IMG/VR virus record: IMGVR_UViG_3300030389_002358
Coordinates: 1 to 63,852 of that record
DNA: 63,852 nt
Reading direction: 5' to 3' (one strand)
Origin: a virus
Position numbers and translations under genes: made by a program. Shown one piece after another: positions 34,401 to 63,852 of the stretch (its first letter is position 1; every line of letters starts with the position of its first letter). The notes below the pieces were generated by a model. The model searched no databases, was not told where the DNA came from, and worked only from the letters and a program-made list of their open reading frames with translations.

Positions 34401-37400
34401 TCCTGCAAAAGTTGCGTTTTGAGATTTATCTAGTGTAAGCGCTGTTGTTAAAGCCTCACCACCATCAGCTGTAGTATAAAATATCATTTTACTAGGAGAA
34501 TCACCATTTGCTACAGCTTGACCATCTGCTACTACAGCTATAGCACCCATTTGTGCAAAATCAGTTCCATCAAATCCTTGCCACCTTATTAAACCACCTT
34601 GACCATTAGGTAAAGCTACTGTTGGCGCAGAAGCATCTCTTGCTCTCAATGATATTAAATTAGCTGTACCATCTCTTCTACCTTCTACAATTAATGAGCC
34701 TCCTTCACCAGCACCACTACCACCGTCAGGGTTTGAATCATCATTAACGTGAACTTTACCATGAAAGGTTGCGTTTTGAGATGTATCTATATCTAATGCT
34801 ATAGTACCACTTGTACCTATTCTTAATTGGTCATCTGTAGTTGTAAATAATGATAACTTATTATTACCCGCAGCTAATATTCCTTTTGTATTGCTTGATT
34901 CAAGGGCTAGCAAAGCACCATTTGTAGAATTTTCGTATACGTGTAATATTTGTGCTGCCTCATCCCATCCACTGCCTGAAGGACTTGACGTTCCCACACC
35001 AACATTTTGGTGGAAAATAGCATCACCACCCGCTTCAAATGTAGCTACTATTGTACCATTTGGAGATCCATCTCCTGCTATATCATTTGTGTTGTTAGTA
35101 AAAAATCTAAACGCACCACCAGTTGCTGTATTACCAGCTACTAAATCATTATTACCATTGTTACCTAACTGTAAATATGCCCAACCAAGATTACCTCTGT
35201 AATTAGCAGTGTTATTATATAATAATTTTAATGTTTCATTGCTACCGCCAAGCGTAATGCCATTGTTAAAGGTTGCAAGGCCTGAACTTGTAATTGTTCC
35301 TCCAAAAGTTGCGTTGTGACTTTCTAATTTTAAACTTGCACTACCTTGTGAGCCCGCTGCATATGTAAAGAACTCTAATGATGAATCTTCACTACCATCT
35401 GAAACATCAGTCATCATGCCTCTTATCAATACTGATTCTATTTGTTCACCAGCATCATTATCACCATACATGTAAATTCTACCAGTCTCGTCATTATCTG
35501 CTGGACTTGCAGAGTCTTTAATTAATCTTAATTGTGGGGCTTGACCATCTGCGTTAGTATTTTTTACAGTTAAAAATGGCTTTGTGCTTGTTGATGATTC
35601 TAAAGTTACATCACCTGCAAAAGTTGCATCCCCTGCGTTTGTAACTTTAAACTGTTCTGATGTACCACCGCCATACCAAATTAAAGGTTGATTTGAAGTT
35701 GTGTTATAATTTAAACTTATTTGACCACCACTAGTTCCAGATATTTTTGCAGCAGCGCCATTAAACTCTAAGTCATTACCATTTATTCTTACATCATCCG
35801 CGAAAGTTGCTTTATTTGAATTATCAAATGTAAGACCAGCACTATTAACACCTATTTCCAAAACAGCACTTGACGCTGTGTCTGCTGTAGGTATTCTAAA
35901 CTGTATAAAACCATCGGCTAAAGCACCGCTATAATCTTCAAGTTGTAGCCTCGTTATTCTATTTGTTGTATTTGTACCCCTTAATCTTAATACAGCATCA
36001 TTGCTAGCACCTTGATTTTGCTTGACATGTAAAGCTGCGCTTGGCTCAGTAAAAGATTCTCCAATACCTATATAACCATTAGAATGTCTTATAGCCATCC
36101 TAGTAGTATAACTACCGCCACCTTTAAATTCTACATTACCTGCGCCGCTCCAGCCATACTGCAAAGTATTTCCACTTTGTACTCTAGCTATTGTTCTTTC
36201 TGTATTACTAGTATCTTTTGCTCTTAGCTCATTGCTATTATTTAAAACAATATTTTTAGTAGAACCTGTTAAAGTTATATTTCCATCAAAGTCTACATCA
36301 CCGGCAAAAGTTGCAGATGTATTACTAGTTAAAACTAAGTTATCAACTTCTCCGTTACCTCCTAATCCTAAAGTACCTCCATCATCAGTAACACCAGCTC
36401 TTGCTCTTATTGCACCATTAGAATAAATACCAGCTGTATTATCTACGTATAGGTAATTATGTGATACTTTAACTATACCATCATTTCTAACGTACATTAA
36501 TTCTTGATCATCAGCGCTTCTTAATCTAAGGTTATACGATTGATCATCACTAGTAGGTCCTTTAACTTCTAATTTAGCGTCTGGATCTGTTACTCCAATT
36601 CCTACTTTTCCGTCTTCCTGTATTCTTACTAACTCACTACCACTACCTGATTCTCCATTTGTGTAAAACGCAAAATATCTATTAGTATCATCATTATCTG
36701 TGTCAATATTAAATGTCATTAACTCTTTAGCGTTAATATGACCAGACGCTGTATCTGCTTTACCTAAATGTAATATACCACCCTCAACAGTTACAGCCCC
36801 TGCAAAAGTTGCTGCACTCGTTGTTAATGTAAATTTGTCTCCTGTTCCTAATGTACCACCACTTGAAATTTTAAATGAATTATCAGTATTATCTTTTCCT
36901 ATTGCCCAATTATCAGTGTTATTACCTGACGCATCATCAGTACCAAATGTAACTTGTGAATCACCATTTGCAGAAATTAATAATTGTGTGCCTCCATTTC
37001 TTCTTGATAATGAATAACCTTCTGCGTCATTTGTTATTTGAGTTACTTTACCATTTATTGTGTGAGCGTCACCAAAATTATCACCAATAGTTGAGTTTCC
37101 ATATACAGATAAAGTTCCTTCTATAAGCGCATTACCTGCAAAAGTTGTATCTAAACTTGAAGCAAAGGTTGCTATTGTATTGTTAGCACTGTTTTTAATT
37201 CTAACTGAACCACCACTAACACCCGCAATAAAATTAGATGCGGTTATGTCTCCACCTGATACGGTAACATCTCCTGCAAAAGTTGCATCACCATTATGAT
37301 CAACAGTAAGTTTATCTGTGCCGCCTTTATCTAAAGTAAGTAAATTACCAGTACCATCACCTCTGACATATAAAACATCACCCGTAGAACTAGCATTATC

Positions 37401-40169
37401 TGACCTTACAGAAACTACAGCTTGAGTATCTACGCCAGTATGATTAGCGTTTGTGTAAAAATATGCAGTAGCTTTATCTGTTAAATTTGTACTATCAATT
37501 TGAAACTTTCTTGATGGAGCAGTAACATTTATTCCTACGTTACCACCACTTGTTATAACCATTTTTTCAGTAGAGTCGTTGGTTAAAAATCTAATATCAG
37601 TTATAGAACCACCAAACTGAACATCATCACTACTGTCTAATGTTAATATATTTCTTTCAGCACCAGCATTGTTTTTAAAACGAAGATTTACGCTATTATT
37701 TAAAACAAGGTTACCAGTCATTGTATCACCTGCTTTAGCTACTTTAGTTGCAATACTATTTGTTACTGTTGTACTAAAGTTTGCATCGTCACCTAACGCT
37801 GCTGCTAGTTCGTTTAATGTATCTAAAGCTGCTGGTGATGAGTCTACTAAGTTTGTTACAGCTGTATCTACGTATGCTGTTGTAGCTACTTTAGTTGAGT
37901 TATCACTTGCTGACTGAGTTGTTGCTGTTGTTGCAGTATTGATTGTACCATTTAAATCACCATTAAATGTTGTGGCTGTTACGTTATTTGGAAAAGTTGC
38001 GTTTTGTGATGCTGATATGGAAAGACCTAAAGTTCCATTTGTAAATACTCTAAATGGATTTGTTCCTGATTTTAATATATCTGCGTCAGTGCTTAAAGTT
38101 ATATCACCTGTCATAGTGCCACCAGCTTTTGGTAAAGCTGCGTTAGCAGTAGTCGTAGTAGATGTTAACACAGCATCTCTTGCTGCTATATCTACACCAT
38201 CAACTGTACCGCTAACAACTATGTTTCCTGTAACATCAATACCACCGGTTGTTGTTTCTATTTTTAATGAATTATCATAGTAGAGTTTTACAGCGCCATC
38301 TTTGTAGAATAATCCCATTTTACCATTAGAAAATGAGCCATCACTTATTAGTCCAATAAAAGTACCGTTTGTATCAAAATATAAATTACCTTCGTTTAAA
38401 TCTCTTACGTAACTGTTATTTCCATCATGATACATTACTAAATCTCCTGACGCTCCAAACTTTAATCTATTATTAGAACCACCACTACTATCTCCAAATT
38501 GTATTAGATTTCCATTTGGATCTAGCGTTCCACCTAGTTGCGGTGTTGTATCTTCAACCACGTTATTTATAGATACAGCTTGTACCCGTGCGTCTGTATA
38601 ATAAAGATTACTACTACCTTCTCCAATATCATCAGTGTCTAATGTTAATGTACCACCTAAAGCTAAACTGTTTGAATTTATTGTTACGCTAGAATTAGCT
38701 AGAGAACTATTTGGAATACTTGATAAGGCAAAGTCAATGTGATTATTAGCGTCGTCGTATGTTACAGCGATGCCACCAGTTTCATCACCACCAAGCATGC
38801 TACCAATAACATCTTGAACTTGTTCGTTAGTTAGTTGAGTAGCAGCTATAGTTAATGCATTACCAGCATCATCATAAGTTAACGTTATATTAGAACCAGC
38901 TGTTAATAATGAATTAACTCTGTCATCAACTCTTTCATTAGTAAAGTATAAATTGCTACTGCCCTCTGTTATTTCATCTGTATTATCTTTTGTTGCTACA
39001 GCTGCATTTATTCTATCGTCTATAGCAGCTGATGTCATTATGCTTGTATCATTATCTGCAAAAGACTCAGAAGCTGTTTGCACAGCTGATATGTTTACGC
39101 TATCAAGTTGTATTGGTCTTGAAAAAATAACGTTTTGAGAAGAGTGATCAAAACGCATTAACTCTGTCATTACACTTGAGTCTGACGATGAGCTTATACG
39201 AAATATTAAATCTTTATTAAGGCCTTGTTTTTGAAACTCAATATCACCATTATTAGTATGGTATATTCTTAAATCAGCGTTAGCACCTATAGTAAACATA
39301 CCGCTATCATCAACTTTTAAATTACCTGTAGTTGTCTGATGGGTATTGGAAACGGTAGTAACGATAATTGAGTCTGGTAAACCTATTTGTATTTGATTAC
39401 CTGATCCCGCTGTTTCTATTTCATTTGAAGTACCAACTATAGATAATGTTTCACTGTCTAAGTCAATTGATAATGCGCCGCCGGTATCGCCTTGAAAGTC
39501 TAAATCTTGCGCAGTTATTTGTGAATCAACATAAGATTTTATTTGGGCTTGTGTAGATAAACCATTACCATTATCTGATACAGCGCCAGTTACTATTGCT
39601 AGCGAGGCTGTTGGGCCTGTACCGTTTGTTATTGTTAATTGATTTGTTGTTGTTGATTGTACCTGTGTTAGGTTACTTGCACCAATTGCTGATGGTGCTA
39701 TAGCATATATTTCTCCTGATGTTATGCTACCTTTTGCTGCTATAGGAACAGATAGTGTTAGCGTTTTAAAGTCACCATCTGTAGATATGTTTGTTATAGT
39801 AAATACACCAAAGTTGTTTTGATTATCAACATTGGATATAATTACATTTTTATTTAATAAACTTTGAATAAAATCTGCCTTAGTATTGCTTGGATCATTA
39901 AAAGAAAATACACTTATTCTTATAGTTCTCGTTGCATTAGTTTCAAAGTTTGTTTGACTTGGTGCATCTAAATAACCAGAAGCCTGACCTATTGAAGTGT
40001 CGTATTTAAATGTTATCTGGTCAGCTACTCCTGCCGCGTTGGTTGCTCTTAAAAAATCAGTTATACTAGCAAAAGTATAATTTCTTGTGCCACCACCCGA
40101 GTCAGAACCAAGCAGCTTATCATTATTACTTAATGATTGATCAGCTTGTATATTTTTTATTTTGGGCAT
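28413..40169 (-). CDS. giant tail fibre with S74 intramolecular chaperone domain
   Basis: 3918 residues, 11.7 kb, nearly a fifth of the genome. The body is made of many short repeats ending ATFAGDVT or variants, typical of long trimeric fibre shafts. The C-terminal domain (from about 3820) is an S74 peptidase/endosialidase-type chaperone: TSDYRLKED carries the catalytic Ser3830/Lys3835 dyad, GYGVLAHELQEVVP follows, and a leucine-rich coiled-coil end closes the protein. S74 domains fold the trimer and then cut themselves off. The N-terminus (about 1-60) would attach to the tail. It probably recognises the host surface. Confidence 0.88.
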   Translation of the reverse strand: MPKIKNIQADQSLSNNDKLLGSDSGGGTRNYTFASITDFLRATNAAGVADQITFKYDTSIGQASGYLDAPSQTNFETNATRTIRISVFSFNDPSNTKADFIQSLLNKNVIISNVDNQNNFGVFTITNISTDGDFKTLTLSVPIAAKGSITSGEIYAIAPSAIGASNLTQVQSTTTNQLTITNGTGPTASLAIVTGAVSDNGNGLSTQAQIKSYVDSQITAQDLDFQGDTGGALSIDLDSETLSIVGTSNEIETAGSGNQIQIGLPDSIIVTTVSNTHQTTTGNLKVDDSGMFTIGANADLRIYHTNNGDIEFQKQGLNKDLIFRISSSSDSSVMTELMRFDHSSQNVIFSRPIQLDSVNISAVQTASESFADNDTSIMTSAAIDDRINAAVATKDNTDEITEGSSNLYFTNERVDDRVNSLLTAGSNITLTYDDAGNALTIAATQLTNEQVQDVIGSMLGGDETGGIAVTYDDANNHIDFALSSIPNSSLANSSVTINSNSLALGGTLTLDTDDIGEGSSNLYYTDARVQAVSINNVVEDTTPQLGGTLDPNGNLIQFGDSSGGSNNRLKFGASGDLVMYHDGNNSYVRDLNEGNLYFDTNGTFIGLISDGSFSNGKMGLFYKDGAVKLYYDNSLKIETTTGGIDVTGNIVVSGTVDGVDIAARDAVLTSTTTTANAALPKAGGTMTGDITLSTDADILKSGTNPFRVFTNGTLGLSISASQNATFPNNVTATTFNGDLNGTINTATTATTQSASDNSTKVATTAYVDTAVTNLVDSSPAALDTLNELAAALGDDANFSTTVTNSIATKVAKAGDTMTGNLVLNNSVNLRFKNNAGAERNILTLDSSDDVQFGGSITDIRFLTNDSTEKMVITSGGNVGINVTAPSRKFQIDSTNLTDKATAYFYTNANHTGVDTQAVVSVRSDNASSTGDVLYVRGDGTGNLLTLDKGGTDKLTVDHNGDATFAGDVTVSGGDITASNFIAGVSGGSVRIKNSANNTIATFASSLDTTFAGNALIEGTLSVYGNSTIGDNFGDAHTINGKVTQITNDAEGYSLSRRNGGTQLLISANGDSQVTFGTDDASGNNTDNWAIGKDNTDNSFKISSGGTLGTGDKFTLTTSAATFAGAVTVEGGILHLGKADTASGHINAKELMTFNIDTDNDDTNRYFAFYTNGESGSGSELVRIQEDGKVGIGVTDPDAKLEVKGPTSDDQSYNLRLRSADDQELMYVRNDGIVKVSHNYLYVDNTAGIYSNGAIRARAGVTDDGGTLGLGGNGEVDNLVLTSNTSATFAGDVDFDGNITLTGSTKNIVLNNSNELRAKDTSNTERTIARVQSGNTLQYGWSGAGNVEFKGGGSYTTRMAIRHSNGYIGIGESFTEPSAALHVKQNQGASNDAVLRLRGTNTTNRITRLQLEDYSGALADGFIQFRIPTADTASSAVLEIGVNSAGLTFDNSNKATFADDVRINGNDLEFNGAAAKISGTSGGQISLNYNTTSNQPLIWYGGGTSEQFKVTNAGDATFAGDVTLESSTSTKPFLTVKNTNADGQAPQLRLIKDSASPADNDETGRIYMYGDNDAGEQIESVLIRGMMTDVSDGSEDSSLEFFTYAAGSQGSASLKLESHNATFGGTITSSGLATFNNGITLGGSNETLKLLYNNTANYRGNLGWAYLQLGNNGNNDLVAGNTATGGAFRFFTNNTNDIAGDGSPNGTIVATFEAGGDAIFHQNVGVGTSSPSGSGWDEAAQILHVYENSTNGALLALESSNTKGILAAGNNKLSLFTTTDDQLRIGTSGTIALDIDTSQNATFHGKVHVNDDSNPDGGSGAGEGGSLIVEGRRDGTANLISLRARDASAPTVALPNGQGGLIRWQGFDGTDFAQMGAIAVVADGQAVANGDSPSKMIFYTTADGGEALTTALTLDKSQNATFAGDVDVADTLKVNQSYQTSNEYVLIGKNTANDGGIVMSSKSGSNSATNDWQIVNQGTNRDLHFYAYGLSDNALILDRETGNATFAGDVTLGTASKKIIADFSSGGTTRKTELELYNSSDGGFTLNNEHSSTGGIKFQIDGSDALSIAKSGKHATFGGNIRTTADIGRDDHNRIMFSTDDSIIFRVADTHRARFDSDALKPYADSSYDLGTNTVRFANIYADTLYGDGSNLTGVTGEWDGSLTGNATISGSLTAGSLITTGSTGTLRLSAETNVITMPSLQDNGTFLSITQTGNESWLFKCESIGGGTADFVTIGASGAAGQFRIREGGGISAHGNSDTIPGLEIHSDNDHGMRILHRATDGDFSFERRVSGTNAEFLRIARATGNAKFSNKVGIGATASDFHADADDLVVGGGSGNTGMTIHSGTSGYGSIFFADGTADDATEKRGQIRYLQGSETMDFHTDNVATPVLTLGATGVATFTNATASGTSLLVRNYTNAIADTKTLIDFRVQGSDNSPYYVAGQMGSKAEGTWTSTSSSRDASLIFNTVLNGDNELALTLDSNKLATFEGDVTLKTGKALLFDNNGTTYIKESSDGVIDFYGDNVHLVSMKQNGTQNEVVVNEASVDVDFRVEANNSTHAFFVEAEGSGKVGIGTASPGAALNVFTGGNSIAAAAVLQHDTFGDDRKVGLGFELGNTQIKGAVGFISDDDTSSQSNGIGNLIFCVDSNDDAAPVGHADEKMRITHGGNVGIGTDSPSSKLHVSGENTVGRFVSSSSYVDLIFQNSGGTGGFLNFVNNTAFNLYVGGGSGANNKMTVKSTGNVGINNSSPTNTLVLTKSSSGQGEHGLRLEFTDTDGPTNTSSSVLVGSYGLKFKNHNSSRNFLFETGKVGIGTASPIVPLHVVGTAVNNPSNGTGGYEVMQVFDDTAYATGVGGGIGLGGKFHSNGTDTIFGEIRGIKENATDTNYASALTFSTRKHLSSITEQMRLSSEGNLGLGITTPTNSTNYKTLDIRGTSGGQILLGRTGVDFFLYSTSASTHLASNSGQDLVFHTGGSGSSNERLRIDSSGNVGIGTDSPEAILSIARNATKTNTGTAEVMHIGTSSETSNYSTLQVTTVGASAAADRKFNFQTIEQGVANAGNLNLQPSGGNVGIGTNDPAGKLHIKESSTQLILETPNTTNDIDFRWRENGTNKWNMRYQNSTNALEFLNQTSGSTLFQLSFLADGSSTFGGNVSTSGASTDFHANASNLVVGSGSGNQGLTIFSGSSAGNYGSIYFADGRADGAEEYRGMITYEQNNEIMRFHTNTTEALKLDLNQDATFAGNATINGYVVTDGQVGVDTFSPYTGTMLHVSGATTAPDTSATNPTNTTAIFSNSDVAYGTLFATHGSGIGEIMQRRTNTATYYDLHLQPHGGESAGVGIGGSVAAGFKFQVNGNANFTENVSMAAAKKIIFGGVTGSGNNAAEIVYNSGILNITADASVANKVQICGDTIEAEEGGVATFANGITVQGGGVSSNTVTVTDTITGGTGKNYASKHSATNLAAGWYTIATNTGDRAQGRFRLVDQTSSRHQAVEFYAAHHFGTDASNQLTVLMNSGFSTEIFTQLRIKDHGTYDGAALQVYIANATNTVDVFLIDQAQTSSGWVVKDFIADATDPGDVDNYASFTSKADLVLSRNDYSVSTTGAFYNKKPNAGTIGLFQGSRNFGLKFQETSVDSGVSQFQIIGINESNSYNNLHLRSAIGTGLVIDTNNDVGIGISSPDAPLHIAAASNANNAEIIRLAYTDGTKDQYRLQLKQTVTSGNVRYNFCMVNNNSAFDDMLIFDQGNIYINPSSPTGTLNTASTSGTGIRFPSGANDSGVMVSVSDESTPNIALVKHSDGSTAGREFIRFVTEGSTSGEIVTGGSTSVCAYNTTSDYRLKEDLKDFDGLDITSKIKMYDFKWKESDTRGYGVLAHELQEVVPSAVTREKDGEQMQGVDYSKLVPVLLKSIQELEARVKELENK

Positions 40170-41750: not shown

Positions 41751-42004
41751 TCCACTATGACTACGTCCCCGTGTTTAATAACAAAATAATACTTGTTATC
41801 AAACTCAATACCGTGACCAGCGTGTTTATCATACCATATAATATCATTTTCATGTATACCATTTATAGTATCACCAACGCTAATTACTTTACCTTTAGAA
41901 TACCTAACATCTTCACTTTGTGATTCACTTAATATAAAACCACTATCAGACTTAGGTTCTTCTTTAATTTTTTCAATAACTATATAATAATTAACTGCTT
42001 TCAT
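41747..42004 (-). CDS. groES: co-chaperonin GroES
   Basis: 85 residues, a single chaperonin-10 domain. The mobile loop is KSDSGFILSESQ (residues about 19-30, FIL taking the place of the usual IVL), followed by the conserved KGKVISVGD and GDTINGIHENDIIWYD. It would cap the phage GroEL and is slightly shorter than bacterial GroES (about 97). It overlaps the groEL end by 14 bases but lies downstream of it, the reverse of the usual groES-groEL order. Confidence 0.85.
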   Translation of the reverse strand: MKAVNYYIVIEKIKEEPKSDSGFILSESQSEDVRYSKGKVISVGDTINGIHENDIIWYDKHAGHGIEFDNKYYFVIKHGDVVIVE

Positions 42005-43565
42005 TATCTTGTAATATTCTAACGTTACTAATTATACAGTCTGCAGATATAATAGTGCTTGCAACTGATGCTGCGTTTTTTAATGCTGATTTAGTTACTA
42101 AAACAGGATCAATAACACCACACTTTACCATATCTACTATTTTACCATCTATGACATTAACCCCGTAACCTTTTTTAAGTTTTTCTTCAGGCACATCTAT
42201 ATTAGCATTTTCTAATATAACCTGAAACGGTGTTGTTATAGCTTGTAATAATATTTCTTCGCCTATATTTTCTGGCTTAATAGAGTTTGCCGCGTTTAAT
42301 AAAGCTATACCACCGCCAGGCACTATACCTTCTTTTAATGCTGCCTTTGTCGCGTGTACAGCATCTTCAACTCTATCTTTCTTTTCTTTTAGCTCTACTT
42401 CGCTATCAGCACCTACATATACGATACCAACAGATCCATTTAATATAGCTAATCTTTCTTCTTGTTTATTTTTTAAGTAAGGATTTTTATCTTCCTTCTT
42501 AATAATATCTTTTACTTGTTTTATACGTTCTTTTAAGTGTTTACCTGATTTATTTATAGTGAACACTGTATGCTTATCATCTGTTACTACTTTAGCCGCT
42601 TCACCTAAACAATCAGGATTAATTAACTCAAAGTCATCACCAAGTTCTTCGTTAATAACTTTAGCGCCTGTTACTATAGCTAAATCTTCTATAGTATCTT
42701 CTTTTGTAGGTCCAAAGCCAGGTAAATCAATAAAGTTAACTTTTATATTACCTTTTACTTTATTAGTTAACAACGCTGCTTTTGGCTGCTGCTCAACTTC
42801 TCCTATTATTAATAAAGGTTTATTACCTTTAATACAATATTCTAATATGTTTTGTATCTTTCTTATATTAGGTATAGGTGATGAAGATATAAGTATTGCA
42901 GGATTTTCTAACGTACACGTGCCTTTATCTTTATCAGTTATTAAATACTGTGATTTTAAAGGAGATTTTATTTGCACGCCATCAACAACATCAACATATG
43001 TTTCTCCTGTTGGCGACTCTTCCATTAATACTATACCGTCGTTACCTACTTTTTTATACGCTTCTGCAATAATATCACCAAGCTCTTTGTCATTGTTAGT
43101 AGATATTGCAGCAACTTGTTGTAATAAATCATCATTAACGGCAACACTTTGCTTGTCCAAATTATTGATAACTTTGTTAACGCCTGATTTAATACCTTCT
43201 TTAATCGTTCTAGTATTTTCTTCTTCATGTTGTTCGGCTATTTTTAATAGTGAATGAGCAAGGATAGTAGCTGTTGTAGTACCATCACCTGCTTCTTTCA
43301 CTGTATTGTTAGCAGCTTCCTTTATTAGAGTAGCTCCTATGTTTTCAACCGGATCATATAAGACAACAGATTGGGCTACTGTTACACCGTCTTTTGTAAT
43401 CACCGGTTTGCCTAATGCGTCTTCATATATAACACATTTTCCCGAGGCTCCCAATGTAGATTTAACTGCATTGTTGAGTTTATCTACACCGTAAATAATT
43501 CTGCGTTTAGCGTGTAAGCCAAAGTCTAGATTTTTGACTATTTGGCTAGGTTGATTATATTCCAT
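41991..43565 (-). CDS. groEL: chaperonin GroEL
   Basis: 524 residues against 548 in E. coli. The signatures are intact: AGDGTTTATILA (catalytic ATP site near residue 86), DRVEDAVHATKAALKEG (with the ATPase Asp) and GIVPGGG. The apical domain is shorter and more divergent, which is common in phage GroELs that may fold selected phage proteins. The C-terminus lacks the GGM repeat tail. It is upstream of groES in the late minus-strand operon, next to the divergent promoter region, so it may be expressed first and strongly. Confidence 0.95.
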   Translation of the reverse strand: MEYNQPSQIVKNLDFGLHAKRRIIYGVDKLNNAVKSTLGASGKCVIYEDALGKPVITKDGVTVAQSVVLYDPVENIGATLIKEAANNTVKEAGDGTTTATILAHSLLKIAEQHEEENTRTIKEGIKSGVNKVINNLDKQSVAVNDDLLQQVAAISTNNDKELGDIIAEAYKKVGNDGIVLMEESPTGETYVDVVDGVQIKSPLKSQYLITDKDKGTCTLENPAILISSSPIPNIRKIQNILEYCIKGNKPLLIIGEVEQQPKAALLTNKVKGNIKVNFIDLPGFGPTKEDTIEDLAIVTGAKVINEELGDDFELINPDCLGEAAKVVTDDKHTVFTINKSGKHLKERIKQVKDIIKKEDKNPYLKNKQEERLAILNGSVGIVYVGADSEVELKEKKDRVEDAVHATKAALKEGIVPGGGIALLNAANSIKPENIGEEILLQAITTPFQVILENANIDVPEEKLKKGYGVNVIDGKIVDMVKCGVIDPVLVTKSALKNAASVASTIISADCIISNVRILQDNESS

Positions 43566-48536: not shown

Positions 48537-48745
48537 AAATTGAAATATTACAAAAAACGTTTGAAATAAGAGCAGAGCTATCTGATCTTCATTGGCACTG
48601 GGATAGTTTAATTAAACTAGAACAGTCATTTGTTGATGAAGAAGAATACGAAAAAGCTCAAATAGCTTTAATGCAAAGAGGTACTCTACACAGACGTATA
48701 GCAAAATTAGAAAAACAACTTAAAAAATATGAAGACACACTTTAA
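48527..48745 (+). CDS. small helical protein (72 aa), start uncertain
   Basis: The frame opens with TTG (48527) overlapping the GATAATA element, and no in-frame ATG occurs until residue 49. An alternative is the near-cognate ATT at 48539. The protein is a helical hairpin rich in Leu, Glu and Lys (LSDLHWHWDSLIKLEQ, HRRIAKLEKQLKKYE). It ends inside the start of the ligase gene (17 bases overlap). Confidence 0.45.
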   Translation: MDNKIEILQKTFEIRAELSDLHWHWDSLIKLEQSFVDEEEYEKAQIALMQRGTLHRRIAKLEKQLKKYEDTL

Positions 48746-49595
48746 ACCTATGCTAGCGCATAAATTCGATAACGATCGAGTTGACTGGTCTCAACCGGTT
48801 TACATACAACCTAAACTCGATGGCATCAGATGTATCATGACTTCTGATGGCTGTTACTCTCGTAATGGTAAAAAATTCATGAATGTACAACACTTATACA
48901 CAAAAGCTATAAAAGATTTATTTAAAGTAAATCCACTGCTTGTGCTCGATGGCGAGTTATATAATCACGATCTAAGAGATAATTTTGAAAAGATAGTATC
49001 TCTTGTCAGAAAACAAAAACCAACGTCAGATGACAGAAAAGAAGCACGTAATTTAATACAATACCATGTGTATGATTTTGTTATGGCATACAAAGGCAGG
49101 CTAGACTTAATAGAGTCTGATATGAACAGGTATGAAAAACGTATGCATCAACTAGTATGCAGCGATATGTACGGTAAACATATAAGATATGTACACGCGC
49201 AAAGAGTTGCAAACTTTCATACAGCTAAAAAGTTACATATTAAATACAAGTCACAAGGTTACGAAGGCTCGATATTAAGGCTTAACGGCCCTTATAAATG
49301 CGGTAGATCATACGATCTAATGAAGTTTAAAGACTTCAGCGATACCGAAGCTAAAATTGTTGACTGGGTTGAAGGTAAAGGCAAAAGGCGCGGTACTATT
49401 GGCAAATTTATTGCCATTGATAGTAGTGGTGTAAAGTTTGGTATGCCGGTTATGGATAATTTTAATTATCTACAAAGAAATTTTAATGAAATGAAAAGTT
49501 ATGTAGGTAAAATTGCTACCTTTACATACTTTGAAAAAACAAAAGCGGGTTCATACAGGCACCCGTTATTTAAATGTATAAGAAATTATGAATGA
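48729..49595 (+). CDS. ATP-dependent DNA ligase
   Basis: 288 residues, the short ligase form. Motif I is PKLDGIR with the adenylated Lys29, motif III LDGELYN (about 78-84), motif IV YEGSILR, and motif V LMKFKDF. A short OB-fold-like C-terminus follows (GKGKRRGTIGKF and the basic end). It seals nicks during replication and recombination. It is larger than minimal viral ligases and lacks N-terminal DNA-binding domains. It precedes small membrane genes and an RlpA-like gene. Confidence 0.88.
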   Translation: MKTHFKPMLAHKFDNDRVDWSQPVYIQPKLDGIRCIMTSDGCYSRNGKKFMNVQHLYTKAIKDLFKVNPLLVLDGELYNHDLRDNFEKIVSLVRKQKPTSDDRKEARNLIQYHVYDFVMAYKGRLDLIESDMNRYEKRMHQLVCSDMYGKHIRYVHAQRVANFHTAKKLHIKYKSQGYEGSILRLNGPYKCGRSYDLMKFKDFSDTEAKIVDWVEGKGKRRGTIGKFIAIDSSGVKFGMPVMDNFNYLQRNFNEMKSYVGKIATFTYFEKTKAGSYRHPLFKCIRNYE

Positions 49596-53693: not shown

Positions 53694-55424
53694 ATGCAAG
53701 TAGAAAACACAGAGATCAATGGTTTTAAGATTAACGAGTTTAATCAATATCATCTTGCAGTGGGTAAGACACAGGGGATTTGTCCTCTGTGTTCTCACGA
53801 CAGGAAACCTGAGAACCGTAAGAAGAAATGTGCTTCTTATGACTGGGAACGTGGTCTCGGTACTTGCCACAACTGTAATTCAACTTTTCAACTACACACT
53901 TACGAACGTAAGGGAGCTAGCGATCGTGAATACGTTCGACCAAGTTTTTCTACAAAAACTCACAAAGCTCCTAGTAGTAAAGTTATAAAATGGTTTAAGT
54001 CAAGAGGAATATCTCAGGATACTTTAGAAGATTTAAATGTTTCTGAAGGTCCTGAGTTTATGCCTCAAACTGGCAAGCAAGAGAACACGATAAAGTTTAA
54101 TTACTTTATGGGTAATAAACTTGTTAATGTTAAATATAGAGACGGTGCTAAAAACTTTAAATTATATAAAGGCGCCGAAAAAATATTTTACAATATAAAC
54201 AGTATCGTTAATCATCAAACTTGTGTTATAGTAGAAGGTGAAATAGATGCCCTGTCTTTACATGAAGCAGGTGTAAGAAATGTTGTATCTGTTCCAAACG
54301 GTGCTACGCTAAATCACAATAACTTAGATTATCTAGACAATTGTATAGATTATTTTGAAGATAAAGAAAAAATAATATTAGCTGTTGACGCTGATGAACC
54401 TGGCACTATGTTAAAACAAGAGTTTATACGTAGGTTAGGAGCTGAAAACTGTTATTTAGTAGATTTTAACGACTGTAAAGATGCTAATGATTACTTAGTA
54501 AAATACGGTGCTAAAGAGTTAAGGTCAATTATAAACAGTGCTCAACAAGTACCATTAGAAAATGTAACAACACTTAAAAATGTAGAAAATGATTTAAAAG
54601 ATTTTGTTAAGCACGGTTTTAAACCTGGCTTTCAAGTTGGCTTAGAAAACTTTGATGATATATTTAGTACCTATACAGGTCAGTTTATAACTGTAACAGG
54701 TATACCATCATCAGGCAAATCAGACTTTGTAGATCAAATGGTCGTAGGTTATAATAAAATGTATGGCTGGAAGACAGCATTCGCAAGCCCTGAAAATCAA
54801 CCTATATATTTACATGCACATAAACTTATGCGTAAATGTTGGGGCGATATGCCTTCACCTGGTGATATAGGTGGCAGCACTTGGAAAAAAGTTTCAAACC
54901 ATGTTAACGATAATTTTTATTTCATAGACATGGATAAGTATAGTTTAGAGTCTGTATTACGTAAAGGCGCTGAGCTAGTTAAACGTAAAGGTATCAAGTG
55001 TTTAGTCATTGATCCTTACAATAAAATAAGAGACGCGAACGCAGTGTCAGATGATGTTAATAGATATACTATGGACTACTTATCAAAGATAGAGCAGTTC
55101 TGTAAAAAGTATGATGTCTTAACATTTATAGTAGCACATCCGACAAAAATGATGCGTGATCAAAACGGTAAAATACAAGAGCCCACAATGTATAATATAA
55201 AAGGTGGTGGTGAGTGGTATGATGCAAGTTATCATGGGTTATTAGTACATAGAGATTATGAGGCTAAAAATACTAAAGTAAAAGTATTAAAAGTTAAGTT
55301 TCAAAATCTAGGTGAAAACGGTGCTGAATCGTTTTTTACTTGGGAGCCTAAATCAGGTTCTTTTGTACCGCAAGTTAATGTATTAGATAAAGAAAAAAAT
55401 GACAGCGGCCTTCCATGGGAGTAA
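53694..55424 (+). CDS. bifunctional primase-helicase (T7 gp4-like)
   Basis: 576 residues. A zinc ribbon with Cys30, Cys33, Cys58 and Cys61 starts it. A TOPRIM domain follows with VEGEIDAL (about 180-190) and AVDADEPG (about 229-236). A DnaB/RecA-type ATPase comes next with Walker A GIPSSGKS (about 335-342) and Walker B CLVIDPYN (near 440). It unwinds the fork and makes primers. It ends 8 bases before the ATG of the next gene. With no phage polymerase seen, it probably works with host Pol III. Confidence 0.9.
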   Translation: MQVENTEINGFKINEFNQYHLAVGKTQGICPLCSHDRKPENRKKKCASYDWERGLGTCHNCNSTFQLHTYERKGASDREYVRPSFSTKTHKAPSSKVIKWFKSRGISQDTLEDLNVSEGPEFMPQTGKQENTIKFNYFMGNKLVNVKYRDGAKNFKLYKGAEKIFYNINSIVNHQTCVIVEGEIDALSLHEAGVRNVVSVPNGATLNHNNLDYLDNCIDYFEDKEKIILAVDADEPGTMLKQEFIRRLGAENCYLVDFNDCKDANDYLVKYGAKELRSIINSAQQVPLENVTTLKNVENDLKDFVKHGFKPGFQVGLENFDDIFSTYTGQFITVTGIPSSGKSDFVDQMVVGYNKMYGWKTAFASPENQPIYLHAHKLMRKCWGDMPSPGDIGGSTWKKVSNHVNDNFYFIDMDKYSLESVLRKGAELVKRKGIKCLVIDPYNKIRDANAVSDDVNRYTMDYLSKIEQFCKKYDVLTFIVAHPTKMMRDQNGKIQEPTMYNIKGGGEWYDASYHGLLVHRDYEAKNTKVKVLKVKFQNLGENGAESFFTWEPKSGSFVPQVNVLDKEKNDSGLPWE

Positions 55425-55431
55425 ATACTCA

Positions 55432-55671
55432 ATGGGTAAATATAATAGAAACAAACAGGAAGATGAAGCTAGGCTATGGTGTATGGAAAACGATATATGT
55501 ATAACACCTAGGCAGCTTAAGTGGGGTGAAAAAGTTTGGGTTGTTGATATAGAAAAAGGAAAATATCCTAATCGTAAACTGTTAGGTACTTCTGATCCAT
55601 ATGGACCAAATACAATATGGGAAAAGGTATCAGAGTATCAACTATATTACTATAAAAAATATGCGAAATAA
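55432..55671 (+). CDS. small conserved phage protein (79 aa)
   Basis: I use the ATG at 55432 (MGKYNRNKQEDEAR...) just after the primase-helicase stop. The longer frame from 55399 overlaps that gene more. WCMENDICITPRQLKWGEKVWVVDIEKG is the core, with a basic/aromatic C-terminus. Its end overlaps the start of the thymidylate-synthase-like gene by 11 bases. Function unknown. Confidence 0.55.
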   Translation: MGKYNRNKQEDEARLWCMENDICITPRQLKWGEKVWVVDIEKGKYPNRKLLGTSDPYGPNTIWEKVSEYQLYYYKKYAK

Positions 55672-56302
55672 TTTTTACAATGCAAATGAAGCTTTTAATT
55701 ATCTTTGGCACTACATACAAAAACAAGGTGTAGACTTTGATAATACTAAGGCTATATTTAATTGTGGTTTCACGTTGCAAGCACCGGTAGAAAACCACAT
55801 AACAAATAAACTACGTGATTGGAAACATGATTACGCTGAAGCTGAATGGCAATGGTACTTATCAGGCGATCCTAGTATAGATAAGCTAGGTAAAATATAT
55901 GGTAAGATACCTCCAATATGGGAACGTATGGCTGATGCAAAACGAGAAGTACGATCTAATTATGGTTGGCAGTGGAACAGAGAAGATCAGTTAGATCAGG
56001 TTATTCAAAAATTAAAAGATAAACCTGACACACGTCACGCTGTAGTTAGTATTTATGATGGCAAAGAAATAGACAGATATAGATATGACACGCCATGTAC
56101 TTACGCGGTTCAATTCACGTTAATAAATAATAAACTTTGTATGTCTGTTTACATGCGATCTAATGATCTCTGGTACGGCTTTTGTAACGATCAATACTGT
56201 TTTAGTATGTTGCAAAAATTAGTTGCAGAGAGATTGTCTATTGATGTCGGGTGGTATTATCATCATGCACATAACATGCATATTTATAACGACAAATTAT
56301 GA
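55661..56302 (+). CDS. thymidylate synthase / dCMP hydroxymethylase family, Asp at the substrate-selecting position
   Basis: 213 residues with the ThyA-family core. The catalytic Cys is TPC146T. R166-S167-x-D169 then continues to Asp177, where ThyA has Asn177 selecting dUMP. Later come HxY (207-209) and EAEWQWYLSGD with Glu62. The spacing C146-R166-D177 is the same as in E. coli ThyA. Asp at this site is the change found in T4 dCMP hydroxymethylase and in dCMP-preferring mutants, so dCMP is the predicted substrate (5-hydroxymethyl or 5-methyl dCMP). The MazG protein that follows could supply dCMP from dCTP. Confidence 0.75.
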   Translation: MRNNFYNANEAFNYLWHYIQKQGVDFDNTKAIFNCGFTLQAPVENHITNKLRDWKHDYAEAEWQWYLSGDPSIDKLGKIYGKIPPIWERMADAKREVRSNYGWQWNREDQLDQVIQKLKDKPDTRHAVVSIYDGKEIDRYRYDTPCTYAVQFTLINNKLCMSVYMRSNDLWYGFCNDQYCFSMLQKLVAERLSIDVGWYYHHAHNMHIYNDKL

Positions 56303-57072
56303 AGTATTTTATTTATCATATTCCTGGTAAAAAAATTGGTGTTACCTGTGACCTTAATAACCGGGTCACGTTACAACAAGGTTATTCACCTAATGAATAT
56401 GAAGTATTAGAAAGCTCTGAAGATTTAGATTATATATCTGAAAGAGAATTAAAATTACAGAAACAATATGGTTACCGTGTAGATATGGTACCGTATAAAA
56501 AACTTAAATCAAAAACAACTATGAATTTAAATGTAACAGAACAAACAACTACCTTTCCTTGTCCTGTAGATAAACTAAAAGGTAGATTATTTGATATTAT
56601 AGGTCACTCATGGTCAACTGATCATGGTGATTTTACAATAGATCAAGACTCAATAAAGTGGATAATAGATAATGTTAAAATGTCTATGTATAATACTGAA
56701 AGATCATACGTATATAATAAAGCTTTTGCGGTTTGGCGAGATAACAAGTCAACTGTTAAGTGTTCAAAAAGACCTCTTAAAATGTTTTCAAACATTAGAA
56801 GTTGGGCAGAAGAAAGAGGTATATATACAAAGGGTGATTCAAAAACTCAATTAATTAAATTACAAGAGGAGATGGGTGAGTTAGCTAAAGCTATACTAGA
56901 AAACGATAAGCCAGAAGTTATAGATGCTATTGGTGATATGGTTGTGGTGTTAACTAACTTAGCACATTTGAATAACGTACATATTGAAAGCTGTATAGCT
57001 GAAGCATACAACGTTATAAGCAAGAGAAAAGGTAAAATGATTAATGGAACATTTGTTAAAGATGAAGGTTAA
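56299..57072 (+). CDS. GIY-YIG-like nuclease domain fused to MazG pyrophosphohydrolase
   Basis: 257 residues. N-terminal FIYHIPGKKIGVTCDLNNRV (residues 4-23) resembles a GIY-YIG core, with FIY, KIG and Arg22, and Glu48 is the likely metal ligand. A middle segment with two aromatic/His runs (about 80-180) has no clear family. The C-terminal part from about 182 (LQEEMGELAKA, then EVIDAIGDMVV) is a MazG all-alpha NTP pyrophosphatase with ExxE and ExxD metal motifs. Overlaps the TS-like gene by four bases (ATGA), so it acts with it. Confidence 0.7.
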   Translation: MKYFIYHIPGKKIGVTCDLNNRVTLQQGYSPNEYEVLESSEDLDYISERELKLQKQYGYRVDMVPYKKLKSKTTMNLNVTEQTTTFPCPVDKLKGRLFDIIGHSWSTDHGDFTIDQDSIKWIIDNVKMSMYNTERSYVYNKAFAVWRDNKSTVKCSKRPLKMFSNIRSWAEERGIYTKGDSKTQLIKLQEEMGELAKAILENDKPEVIDAIGDMVVVLTNLAHLNNVHIESCIAEAYNVISKRKGKMINGTFVKDEG

Positions 57073-57286
57073 TACACAAGACAAAATAGTACAAGCTGTT
57101 ATAGCTAAAATGGATAAACGTAGTTTAGTTGGTCAACAAAAGTACGGGCAAACAATGCATAACGAAATAACAACTAATAAAAAAAATCTATATGATTTTT
57201 TAGTTGATGTTCAAGAAGAAATAATGGATGCGTTGTTATACATTGAAGCTGCAAAAACATGTATAGATAATGAGACGAAAGATTAG
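57062..57286 (+). CDS. second small MazG-like / all-alpha NTP pyrophosphatase-like protein
   Basis: 74 residues from ATG 57062 (MKVNTQDKIVQ...). The pattern of KYGQT (about 30-34) and LVDVQEEIMDALLYIE (about 51-66) is that of a short MazG-like helical protein with one ExxD-type motif. It overlaps the previous gene's stop by 11 bases. A role in nucleotide-pool cleaning is inferred. Confidence 0.5.
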   Translation: MKVNTQDKIVQAVIAKMDKRSLVGQQKYGQTMHNEITTNKKNLYDFLVDVQEEIMDALLYIEAAKTCIDNETKD

Positions 57287-57719
57287 AAGAAAACGTGGTC
57301 CTGTTGTAAGTAAAAAAATTACTTACGACGGTATCAAGTTTGCTTCAGGTTTAGAAAAATATATGTATGCTTTGTTAAAGAAAAACAAGATAACAACAGC
57401 TTATGAAGGTACTACATATACTATATTTCCTAGCTTTGATTTTAAAAAAGAAAGCTTTGAGAGATGTGCTAATGGCAAGGGTGAGTTTAAAAACAGGGGT
57501 AACAAAAAAGTTTTAGCAATAACTTATACGCCTGATTTTATAGGACCTGGCTATATAATTGAGTGTAAAGGTAGAGCTAACGAAAGTTTTCCTTTACGGT
57601 GGAAGATGTTTAAGAATTATGTTGAGCAACATTTATGCGCAACATTATATAAACCGCAAAATCAAAAAGAATGCGAAGAAGTAATAACATTAATAAAACA
57701 AAGGAAGAAAAACAATTAG
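57270..57719 (+). CDS. DUF1064-like PDDEXK nuclease
   Basis: 149 residues. Basic start, GLEKYMYALL (Glu of the active site), YTPDF (Asp) and IIECKGR (ExK) are in the order expected for DUF1064-type endonucleases. The sequence FASGLEKYMY follows the family. It may resolve DNA junctions during replication or packaging. Overlaps the previous gene by 17 bases and the next by 49. Confidence 0.7.
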   Translation: MRRKIRRKRGPVVSKKITYDGIKFASGLEKYMYALLKKNKITTAYEGTTYTIFPSFDFKKESFERCANGKGEFKNRGNKKVLAITYTPDFIGPGYIIECKGRANESFPLRWKMFKNYVEQHLCATLYKPQNQKECEEVITLIKQRKKNN

Positions 57720-58126: not shown

Positions 58127-59095
58127 ATGGGATTATTTGACAAGCGTATAGCATATAAACCTTTTGAGTACCCTGAGTATTATAACGAGGGTTGGTTGAA
58201 ACAAGCTCAAGCATTTTGGTTACACACTGAAATACCTATGTCAGGTGATGTAAAAGACTGGAACGAAAAATTAACTAACGCAGAAAAAAATTTAGTTGGT
58301 AATATACTGCTAGGTTTTGCGCAAACTGAATGCGCTGTATCAGACTATTGGACACAAAAAGTAGTATCATGGTTTCCTAAACATGAGATACAACAAATGG
58401 CAATGATGTTTGGTAGTCAAGAAACAATACACGCTGTAGCGTATAGCTATTTAAACGAAACATTAGGCCTTGAAAACTTTGAAGCGTTTTTACACGAACC
58501 TGCAACAGCAGAACGTTTTGATAATTTAGTTTCATATGATGGTACAGATCCTATAGAAATAGGTAGATCACTTGCTATATTTTCTGCGTTTGCAGAAGGT
58601 GTTAGTTTATATTCTGCTTTTGCTGTATTGTATAGTTTTCAAATGAGAAACTTATTAAAAGGTATAGGCCAACAAATGAAATGGTCTGTTAGAGATGAAA
58701 GTCTACACTCACGTATGGGTTGTAGATTATTTAGACATATGTGTGAAGAAAAAGACTTTTTAAAAGAGTCATGTAAACCACATATTGTAGAAGCAGCACA
58801 CGTGATGCATGATGCTGAAATGAAATACATAGATAAGATGTTTGAAGCTGGAGACATTGAAGGCTTAAAATCTTATGACTTAAAACAATTTATAAAGAAA
58901 AGATTAAATGAAAAACTGGTGGAGCTTGGGTACGAAGAGCTCTCGAAAGAATTTAAATACGACAAAGGAGCCGCAAAAGAGCTTAGTTGGTTTTATCATC
59001 TTACTGGTGGTCATACCCATACTGACTTTTTTGCTATTAGGCCTACAGACTATAGCAAAGCAAATGAAGGAGAAGACTTCGAAAATATCTGGTAA
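58127..59095 (+). CDS. nrdB: ribonucleotide reductase class I beta subunit
   Basis: 322 residues with the complete class I diiron set: Glu68 (TECAVSDYW), Glu99 and His102 (SQETIHAVAY, with the radical Tyr106), Glu157 (FAEGVSLY), and Glu191/His194 (RDESLHSRMG). The C-terminal peptide EDFENIW is the docking tail for NrdA. It generates the tyrosyl radical for deoxynucleotide synthesis. Upstream of nrdA with a five-base gap, which suggests co-expression. Confidence 0.93.
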   Translation: MGLFDKRIAYKPFEYPEYYNEGWLKQAQAFWLHTEIPMSGDVKDWNEKLTNAEKNLVGNILLGFAQTECAVSDYWTQKVVSWFPKHEIQQMAMMFGSQETIHAVAYSYLNETLGLENFEAFLHEPATAERFDNLVSYDGTDPIEIGRSLAIFSAFAEGVSLYSAFAVLYSFQMRNLLKGIGQQMKWSVRDESLHSRMGCRLFRHMCEEKDFLKESCKPHIVEAAHVMHDAEMKYIDKMFEAGDIEGLKSYDLKQFIKKRLNEKLVELGYEELSKEFKYDKGAAKELSWFYHLTGGHTHTDFFAIRPTDYSKANEGEDFENIW

Positions 59096-59100
59096 ATAAT

Positions 59101-60822
59101 ATGTGGAGTAATAGATGGAAAAAAGGCGTTGATTACCCAGAGTGGGCAGACGCTGAAGTGTATAAAAAAACTATAACTGGTGGTTATCTATATAACGGAG
59201 AAACACCTCGTGAAGCGTATGAACGTGTGGCAACAACAGTTGCAAGGCGTTTAAGGAAGCCAGAAATGGCTGATACATTTTTTGATTATATTTGGAAAGG
59301 TTGGTTGTGTTTAGCATCACCTGTATTGTCAAACACTGGCACAGAAAGAGGTTTGCCCATATCTTGTTTTGGCATTGATGTTGCTGATAGTATATTAGAT
59401 ATAGGTACCAAAAACCTAGAGATGATGTTACTAGCTAAACATGGTGGTGGTGTTGGTATTGGTATAAATCAAATAAGGCCAGCGGGCGCTGAGATTACAA
59501 TGAACGGTACGTCAGATGGCGTTGTACCTTTTTGTAAGATATATGACTCAACTATACTAGCTACTAATCAAGGGGCTGTAAGAAGAGGCGCTGCATCAGT
59601 TAATTTAAATATAGATCACAAAGACTGGGAAGACTGGTTAGAAATAAGGGAACCTAAAGGTGACGTTAATAGACAATCATTAAACCTACATCAATGTACT
59701 ATAATAGGTGATAAGTTTATGCGTAAACTTAGAGACGGTGATAAAGTTGCAAGGCGTAAATGGGGTAAATTACTTCAGAAACGTAAAGCAACTGGTGAGC
59801 CTTATATAATGTTTAAAGGTAATGTTAACAAACAAAACCCTAGCATGTATAAGGATAATGCTTTGAAAGTGTTTATGACAAACATATGTTCAGAGATAGT
59901 ATTACATACAGATGAAAACCATAGTTTTGTTTGTTGTTTATCTAGTTTAAATCTAGCTAAATATCACGAGTGGAAAGACTCAAACTTAATATATGATAGT
60001 GTATGGTTTTTAGATGGAGTATTAGAGGAATTTATACAAAAAGCAAAAAATAGGAGAGGATTTGAAAACGCTGTAAGGTTTGCAGAAAAAGGTAGAGCAC
60101 TTGGTTTAGGTGTTTTAGGTTGGCATACTTATTTACAACAAAAAGGTTTTCCTTTTGAAGGCTTATTAGCACAATATGAAACAAGAAGAATATTTAGTCA
60201 AATTAAAATTGAAAGCGAAAGAGCTAGCATGGCACTTGCAGAAGCGTTTGGTGAACCGTTATGGTGCGTGGGCACCGGATTTCGTAATAGCCATCTTCGT
60301 GCTATTGCACCTACCGTTTCTAATTCAAAGCTTGCTGGTAATATTAGTCCAGGAATCGAGCCTTGGGCGGCTAATGTATTTACGGACCAAAGCGCGAAAG
60401 GTACGTTCATACGCAAAAATCCTACTCTTGTTAAAGAACTGGAGAAACATAATTTAAATACTAAAAAAATATGGGATCAAATTTTGCAGGACGGTGGTTC
60501 AATACAAGGTGTAAAACAATTAGACAACGTTACATGCGGAGAGCACGATACACCTATAAAAGACGTATACAAAACATTTAAGGAAATAAATCAACTAGAA
60601 TTAGTTAATCAAGCTGGTATAAGACAACAGTATATAGATCAGTCTGTTAGTTTAAATTTAGCTTTTCCTTCACAAGCAGATCCTAAATGGATAAATAAAG
60701 TACATTTAGAGGCTTGGAAAAAAGGTATTAAGACTTTGTATTATATGCGTACCGAGTCGGTACTTAGAGGAGATATAGCTGAAACAGCTATGAGTGAAGA
60801 TTGTTTAAGTTGTGATGGATAA
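59101..60822 (+). CDS. nrdA: ribonucleotide reductase class I alpha subunit (no ATP-cone)
   Basis: 573 residues, against 761 in E. coli. Catalytic residues: Cys89 (LPISCFG), Asn261, Cys263 and Glu265 (TNICSEIV), the Cys pair near 278-279, Tyr547-Tyr548 (LYYMRTES), and the C-terminal CLSC (568-571) that passes electrons. It lacks the N-terminal ATP-cone, so allosteric activity control would be absent, as in many phage enzymes. Ends just before the bidirectional terminator. No phage thioredoxin or glutaredoxin is visible. Confidence 0.93.
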   Translation: MWSNRWKKGVDYPEWADAEVYKKTITGGYLYNGETPREAYERVATTVARRLRKPEMADTFFDYIWKGWLCLASPVLSNTGTERGLPISCFGIDVADSILDIGTKNLEMMLLAKHGGGVGIGINQIRPAGAEITMNGTSDGVVPFCKIYDSTILATNQGAVRRGAASVNLNIDHKDWEDWLEIREPKGDVNRQSLNLHQCTIIGDKFMRKLRDGDKVARRKWGKLLQKRKATGEPYIMFKGNVNKQNPSMYKDNALKVFMTNICSEIVLHTDENHSFVCCLSSLNLAKYHEWKDSNLIYDSVWFLDGVLEEFIQKAKNRRGFENAVRFAEKGRALGLGVLGWHTYLQQKGFPFEGLLAQYETRRIFSQIKIESERASMALAEAFGEPLWCVGTGFRNSHLRAIAPTVSNSKLAGNISPGIEPWAANVFTDQSAKGTFIRKNPTLVKELEKHNLNTKKIWDQILQDGGSIQGVKQLDNVTCGEHDTPIKDVYKTFKEINQLELVNQAGIRQQYIDQSVSLNLAFPSQADPKWINKVHLEAWKKGIKTLYYMRTESVLRGDIAETAMSEDCLSCDG

Positions 60823-63446: not shown

Positions 63447-63852
63447 TTAATTAACTTTTTTACCACCAGATCTAGCTGGATTACTTGCTACAGGAGCACC
63501 ACTACCACCTGTTGTATTACCACCATAACTTTGCGTTCCTGATGAACTACCTACACTTATTGGAGCACTATTATTAACGTTTGGATACGGTGTTATTTGT
63601 CCATACGTTCCGTTAGCTCTACCATGGTATCTCCACCTATCATTATAATATCTGTAGTCATAATGATGATCATAACCTGGCACGTAAAACCTATTATCTT
63701 GCCACCTAACAAAATCATAACCAACTACGTTATACATGCGTTGTGGTTGTATATCTTGTATTCTTATTTTAACAGTGTCACCCATTTCAGTTAATGCTAG
63801 AACGTGAGTAACCATAACCTGGTTACCTCTGTATAAAAGGTCTGAACAGCTT
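63447..63852 (-). CDS. phage lipoprotein, C-terminal part (joins the left contig end)
   Basis: The gene has no start inside this window end: the frame is open to the right edge, and the lipobox part is at 1-242. A shorter internal Met at 63815 gives 122 residues but loses the lipobox. The C-terminal half is Gly/Ser/Asn/Tyr-rich. The duplicated part 63691-63852 matches 1-162. Confidence 0.75.
   Translation of the reverse strand, partial: SCSDLLYRGNQVMVTHVLALTEMGDTVKIRIQDIQPQRMYNVVGYDFVRWQDNRFYVPGYDHHYDYRYYNDRWRYHGRANGTYGQITPYPNVNNSAPISVGSSSGTQSYGGNTTGGSGAPVASNPARSGGKKVN
63691..63852. repeat. right copy of the terminal redundancy
   Basis: Equals 1-162 with mismatches at 63768, 63774 and 63822. 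Joining the two copies restores one continuous lipoprotein gene and gives a unique genome of about 63.69 kb. Confidence 0.9.

Follow-up and report, generated by a model that had tools for sequence, protein, structure and literature searches.

A tail-less thymidylate synthase-fold protein with Asp177 in a marine phage is probably a deoxycytidylate 5-hydroxymethylase

Introduction

In enzymes of the thymidylate synthase (TS) fold, an aspartate at position 177 selects cytosine as the base (PMC8670742, PMC6400193). The hydroxymethylation signature of phage T4 comprises Asp145 three residues before Cys148, Ser94-x-Tyr96, Asp179, Glu60 and the lack of a C-terminal tail (PMC6400193), and enzymes that prefer the deoxyribose substrate deoxycytidine monophosphate (dCMP) carry Arg and Ser where MilA has Lys and Ala (PMC5175136). 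The RB69/AfhB hydroxylase class, in turn, makes 5-hydroxy-dCMP (PMC13390438). On a larger scale, the MetaGPA study found that non-His147/Asp177 TS proteins and their PF01503 neighbours mark phage contigs with modified cytosine, with which the DNA ligase domains PF01068/PF14743 are also associated (PMC8670742). Here we describe a TS-fold gene with Asp177 in the IMG/VR virus record IMGVR_UViG_3300030389_002358, whose whole stretch of 63,852 bp was analysed and is called the window below. We conclude that its product is very probably a phage deoxycytidylate 5-hydroxymethylase, tail-less and of the same kind as T4 gp42, and that it would supply 5-hydroxymethyl-dCMP (hm-dCMP) to phage DNA.

Results

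The TS-fold gene and its catalytic residues

The gene under study is the following.
55661..56302, + strand: predicted dCMP hydroxymethylase, TS fold, 213 aa (Cys146 nucleophile, Asp177, Glu62, Ser99-x-Tyr101, Asp143, Arg125, Ser167)

A longer alternative start lies at 55601 (233 aa); conservation among relatives sets in near 55661. The 213-aa open reading frame (ORF) matches Pfam Thymidylat_synt (1.2e-25), and its sequence matches to solved structures are led by MilA (E 4.5e-23), followed by the thymidylate synthase 6auj (7e-17) and T4 dCMP hydroxymethylase (1e-16). MilA was also ranked first in a profile search. With an AlphaFold model (predicted local distance difference test score 84.9), Foldseek again returned MilA as the nearest structure and T4 dCMP hydroxymethylase as the next, and when the model was aligned structurally with ThyA chains, 1tys among them, its residues 9-213 fell on ThyA 1-213.

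An earlier note on this DNA had placed Cys146, Arg166, Asp169, His207 and Tyr209 by E. coli ThyA numbering, and alignments with 6auj, MilA and T4 gp42 indeed set each of them on its TS counterpart. The aspartate that the note had seen at the Asn177 position likewise aligns with TS Asn177, MilA Asp186 and T4 gp42 Asp179. None of these six residues varies among 160 IMG/VR relatives, of which 80 are 68-79% identical to the query and 80 were found through a Bacteroides phage homologue; some of the contigs are near copies of one another, so that the counts are not all independent. Asp177 is present in the Bacteroides phage homologue too. Since every sequence of both relative sets has Asp here, Asp177 is neither a chance substitution nor an assembly error.

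The protein ends at residue 213, directly after the His-x-Tyr motif, without a C-terminal tail, and position 147 is Thr where TS has His147. A plain thymidylate synthase was rejected on these grounds, with Asp177/Thr147 in place of Asn177/His147 and the folate-closing tail absent. An unusual thymidylate synthase providing the phage with dTMP would agree with the Pfam match, with a nucleotide gene cluster containing ribonucleotide reductase (RNR) and with the lack of any other TS in the genome, but T4 dCMP hydroxymethylase-type residues throughout and the lack of a visible dihydrofolate reductase make it barely credible. Each of 24 lineage records has a single TS-fold gene, always of the Asp177 type; in one record the match occurs at two places near the ends with identical scores, which may be a redundant end.

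Residues that separate the enzyme classes

The T4 signature is found throughout in the query, as Asp143, Ser99, Tyr101, Asp177, Glu62 and the end at residue 213, and the signature residues are invariant across the IMG/VR relatives. T4 gp42 resembles the query in Asp179, Cys148, Glu60, Asp145, Ser94-x-Tyr96, Trp82 and the missing tail, in the Asn-Asp-Gly residues around the folate site and in an identical SNYGW stretch. It differs in that the query is 31% identical, about 33 residues shorter and has His126 and Cys175 for Arg124 and Arg177; in addition, the dCTPase partner in the window would be a MazG fusion and not gp56, and neither a glucosyltransferase nor a gp1 kinase was found in the searches given below. 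The same short form is seen in Bacteroides phage protein BF486P2_00032 (annotated dCMP hydroxymethyltransferase), which has 45% identity, the FCNDQYCFS motif and a place in the same clade; unlike the query, it has no MazG-type product annotated adjacent to it in the stretch read. This Bacteroides phage also encodes a second, very diverged TS-fold paralogue, BF486P2_00027 (L001:9126-9887), with Asp177 and with Leu for the folate Glu, and its chemistry may differ.

MilA, a CMP 5-hydroxymethylase (5b6d, 5jnh), shares with the query the hydroxymethylating TS fold and an Asp (Asp186), but has the ribose-preferring pair Lys133/Ala176 and a large extra C-terminal region. The query has Arg125 and Ser167, the dCMP-enzyme type, and these residues therefore argue for dCMP over CMP as the likely substrate; a ribose-type CMP hydroxymethylase was rejected for the same reason.

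Asp177 speaks for cytosine as the base and leaves the product undecided, because the TS-fold dCMP hydroxylases, which make 5-hydroxy-dCMP, share it; on this point the earlier note's argument was too weak. The discrimination comes from Glu62, Trp87, Ser99, Asp143, Asp169 and Gly173. A flavin-dependent dCMP hydroxylase of the RB69/AfhB type, making 5-hydroxycytosine, was taken seriously after a structural match to 9iqc (see below). RB69 ORF048c, nearly identical to 9iqc/9iqu, the dCMP hydroxylase of solved structure, has the fold, the short tail-less chain, Asp177 and Thr147 in common with the query. The aligned hydroxylases (RB69 ORF048 and phiP4-3), however, have Phe62, Ala87, Thr or Met99, Glu143, Gln168, Asn169 and Val173, where the query and T4 gp42 both have Glu, Trp, Ser, Asp, Asn, Asp and Gly, so that the alignment splits the hydroxylases cleanly from the query and gp42. 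Among these positions Glu62, Trp87, Asp169 and Gly173 are folate-side residues, lost in the hydroxylases and kept in the query. The query is also only 23% identical to the RB69 enzyme, against 31% to T4 gp42, and some relatives adjoin a homologue of beta-glucosyltransferase, whose T4 counterpart acts on hydroxymethylcytosine. The hydroxylase was rejected on Glu62, Asp169, Asp143 and the other replaced residues, and we regard it as quite improbable.

The earlier note had left the modification as hydroxymethyl or methyl. A dCMP methylase, either XP12-like and making 5-methyl-dCMP or an N177D-type TS with hydride transfer kept, is conceivable in that the N177D/N229D mutation by itself converts TS to a dCMP methylase (cited in PMC8670742). 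The query nevertheless lacks the C-terminal tail with which TS closes its site for hydride transfer, as does the T4 enzyme (PMC6400193); it has the water-activating residues Asp143 and Ser99, where TS carries no Asp and, in place of the Ser, a Pro; and its residue 147 is Thr and not His. Hydroxymethylation is favoured and methylation, weighed by residues without a natural dCMP methylase for comparison (the XP12 sequence was not found), is very improbable.

Gene neighbours and their linkage to the hydroxymethylase

The gene belongs to a nucleotide gene cluster that contains RNR. The other genes considered are the following.
53694..55424, + strand: DNA primase/helicase, upstream of the hydroxymethylase
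56299..57072, + strand: MazG/PRA-PH all-alpha NTP pyrophosphohydrolase domain fused to an N-terminal region; proposed dCTPase, from a presumed substrate
57270..57719, + strand: DUF1064 / Holliday-junction-resolvase-like nuclease, a neighbour conserved among relatives
58127..59095, + strand: ribonucleotide reductase small subunit (NrdB), class I, same cluster; dNDP supply
59101..60822, + strand: ribonucleotide reductase large subunit (NrdA), class I
48729..49595, + strand: ATP-dependent DNA ligase (PF01068 + PF14743)

The MazG neighbour to which the earlier note had pointed is real and overlaps the hydroxymethylase stop codon. Its MazG domain occupies approximately residues 160-257 of the fusion, where the ExxE...ExxD metal motif (Glu190/191, Glu194, Glu206, Asp209) is invariant; Foldseek on the whole fusion gave matches to MazG-fold chains with weak E-values only. 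The conserved N-terminal half (56299-56750) contains the stretch YHIPGKKIGVT..R, whose likeness to a GIY-YIG core was judged only by eye.

Of 82 close loci, the window's own copy counted, 81 have the MazG gene next to the hydroxymethylase gene, and in a wider set the MazG cluster occurs in 54 of 81 loci, usually adjacent. In the more distant loci L107-L110, which look like a single phage sampled several times, the pair adjoins a homologue of T4 beta-glucosyltransferase (1bgt, E 8e-16). In L111/L112, also more distant, the gene immediately upstream of the hydroxymethylase encodes a homologue of the T4 gp56 dCTPase (E 1.9e-18), and Lactobacillus phage ATCCB has a related enzyme with Asp177 next to an annotated beta-glucosyltransferase. 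Such glucosyltransferase and dCTPase neighbours act on hydroxymethylcytosine or imply its presence, and because of this gene linkage we infer that the MazG-type protein acts as a dCTPase. The window contains all three MetaGPA features, namely the Asp177 TS protein, a PF01503 neighbour and a PF01068/PF14743 ligase. Fold, residues, conservation and gene linkage, each directly observed, strongly support the earlier assignment of the gene to a dCMP-modifying enzyme.

Proposed pathway and observations that weigh against it

The favoured deoxycytidylate 5-hydroxymethylase would work as follows. Cys146 would attack C6 of dCMP, and Asp177 would recognise the N3/N4 edge of the cytosine and protonate it; 5,10-methylene-tetrahydrofolate would be opened with the help of Glu62 and its methylene handed to C5. 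Tetrahydrofolate would then depart and a water placed by Asp143, Ser99 and Tyr101 would add to the exocyclic methylene, giving hm-dCMP and not dTMP. The MazG-type pyrophosphohydrolase would convert dCTP to dCMP, clearing the unmodified competitor as well, and the phage RNR would refill the nucleotide pool. A kinase, probably the host's, would bring hm-dCMP to the triphosphate for phage DNA, in which 5-hydroxymethylcytosine (5hmC) would block cytosine-reading restriction enzymes.

Several observations weigh against this assignment. In VIA-align, the dCMP hydroxylase 9iqc gave the top Z of 23.8, a point for the hydroxylase, though less than 1 above MilA (23.1); because the two are level, the modelled fold alone cannot decide between hydroxylase and hydroxymethylase. 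In the tree, the deepest split leaves the query clade on the same side as T4 gp42, apart from MilA, the hydroxylases and TS, with moderate bootstrap values for the gp42 grouping (92/94 and 90/88), and since several long branches meet there the placement is weak evidence. The active site departs from T4 at two positions that vary in other family enzymes too: of the paired arginines that the other subunit provides for the phosphate, Arg125 is present and the second (T4 Arg124) is replaced by His126 (Gln in the SPO1 dUMP hydroxymethylase), and the T4 tetrahydrofolate-tail contact Arg177 is Cys175. A search of 24 lineage genomes found no gp1-type deoxynucleoside monophosphate (dNMP) kinase, and one of 12 found no DNA polymerase of family A or B. 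Finally, six-base palindromes are avoided in the window, an indirect test of DNA protection that is equivocal for want of a modified or unmodified control phage: GATATC occurs once where 16.5 are expected, AGTACT 3 times against 15.4, GAATTC 0 against 6.2 and GGATCC 0 against 5.8, and no non-palindromic 6-mer reached p<1e-4. This under-representation hints that restriction pressure persists or did so recently.

The last three observations also bear on a reading in which dCMP is hydroxymethylated and the product is kept out of phage DNA, through pool poisoning or a nucleotide-level role. The enzyme activity would be that of the favoured hydroxymethylase, and the difference lies in the fate of the product alone. 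Neither a dNMP kinase nor a DNA polymerase nor a decorating transferase was detected in the lineage, and palindrome avoidance persists. Close analogues with the same gene pair nevertheless carry the homologue of beta-glucosyltransferase, whose expected substrate is DNA, and MetaGPA ties such TS proteins to modified contigs; we therefore consider retention in the pool unlikely.

Incorporation of hm-dCMP into phage DNA thus stays the preferred outcome. Like the earlier note, we saw no glycosyltransferase, either among the scanned window ORFs or by GT2 and phrog_7922 searches, which covered some families only. Family searches of the 24 lineage genomes returned no carbamoyltransferase, ThyX, glycosyltransferase family 2 or phage beta-glucosyltransferase, and T4 gp1 had no relative in any of the loci analysed. 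Because neither a gp1-type kinase nor a family A or B polymerase was found, the later steps would lean on other host or phage enzymes. A widespread marine lineage of approximately 60-70 kb might even replace cytosine by bare 5hmC with no more than a minimal hydroxymethylase and a dCTPase of the MazG-fusion type, a tentative proposal that we hold to be doubtful. If it were true, the phage would encode neither an hm-dCMP kinase nor a DNA polymerase nor a sugar transferase, and the modified nucleotide would need to be accepted by host kinases and the host replicase.

Other phages are already known to carry out this enzyme chemistry, and the lineage that carries the gene is widespread. If the assignment is right, DNA with 5hmC would reach a common, mostly uncultured phage lineage, and a handful of residues could separate hydroxymethylases, hydroxylases and thymidylate synthases that are now lumped in databases. 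Modified cytosine biases sequencing libraries, and counts of such phages from marine viromes may therefore be too low.

Genome setting and further observations

The two ends of the window (positions 1-163 and 63690-63852) carry the same 163-bp sequence in direct orientation, apart from a few mismatches, and the record is therefore probably a near-complete genome. Distant nucleotide matches of the window are chiefly to Flavobacterium, Cellulophaga and Tenacibaculum phages, and a virion protein (11428-12822, - strand) contains a crAss muzzle C-terminal domain, in a phage whose size of about 64 kb is outside the usual crAss range. Because of these matches and this domain, the host of this marine phage is likely a member of the Bacteroidota. 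The phage also encodes a GroEL-like chaperonin (41991-43565, - strand; phrog_5725, E 3e-136) and a 3918-aa ORF (28413-40169, - strand) with tail-fibre matches in parts only, mainly at its C-terminal end.

In cousin loci, an operon stands beside the Asp177 hydroxymethylase (L155:1321-3993, L133, L125, L160 and about 22 other loci). It encodes a 302-aa protein of SGNH-like appearance (phrog_13881), a 303-aa protein and a PLP (pyridoxal phosphate) fold-II enzyme, and could be an undescribed cytosine hypermodification pathway. One of 17 members of the 303-aa protein weakly matches the helical domain of a 5-hydroxymethyldeoxyuridine (5-hmdU) DNA kinase (E 0.03).
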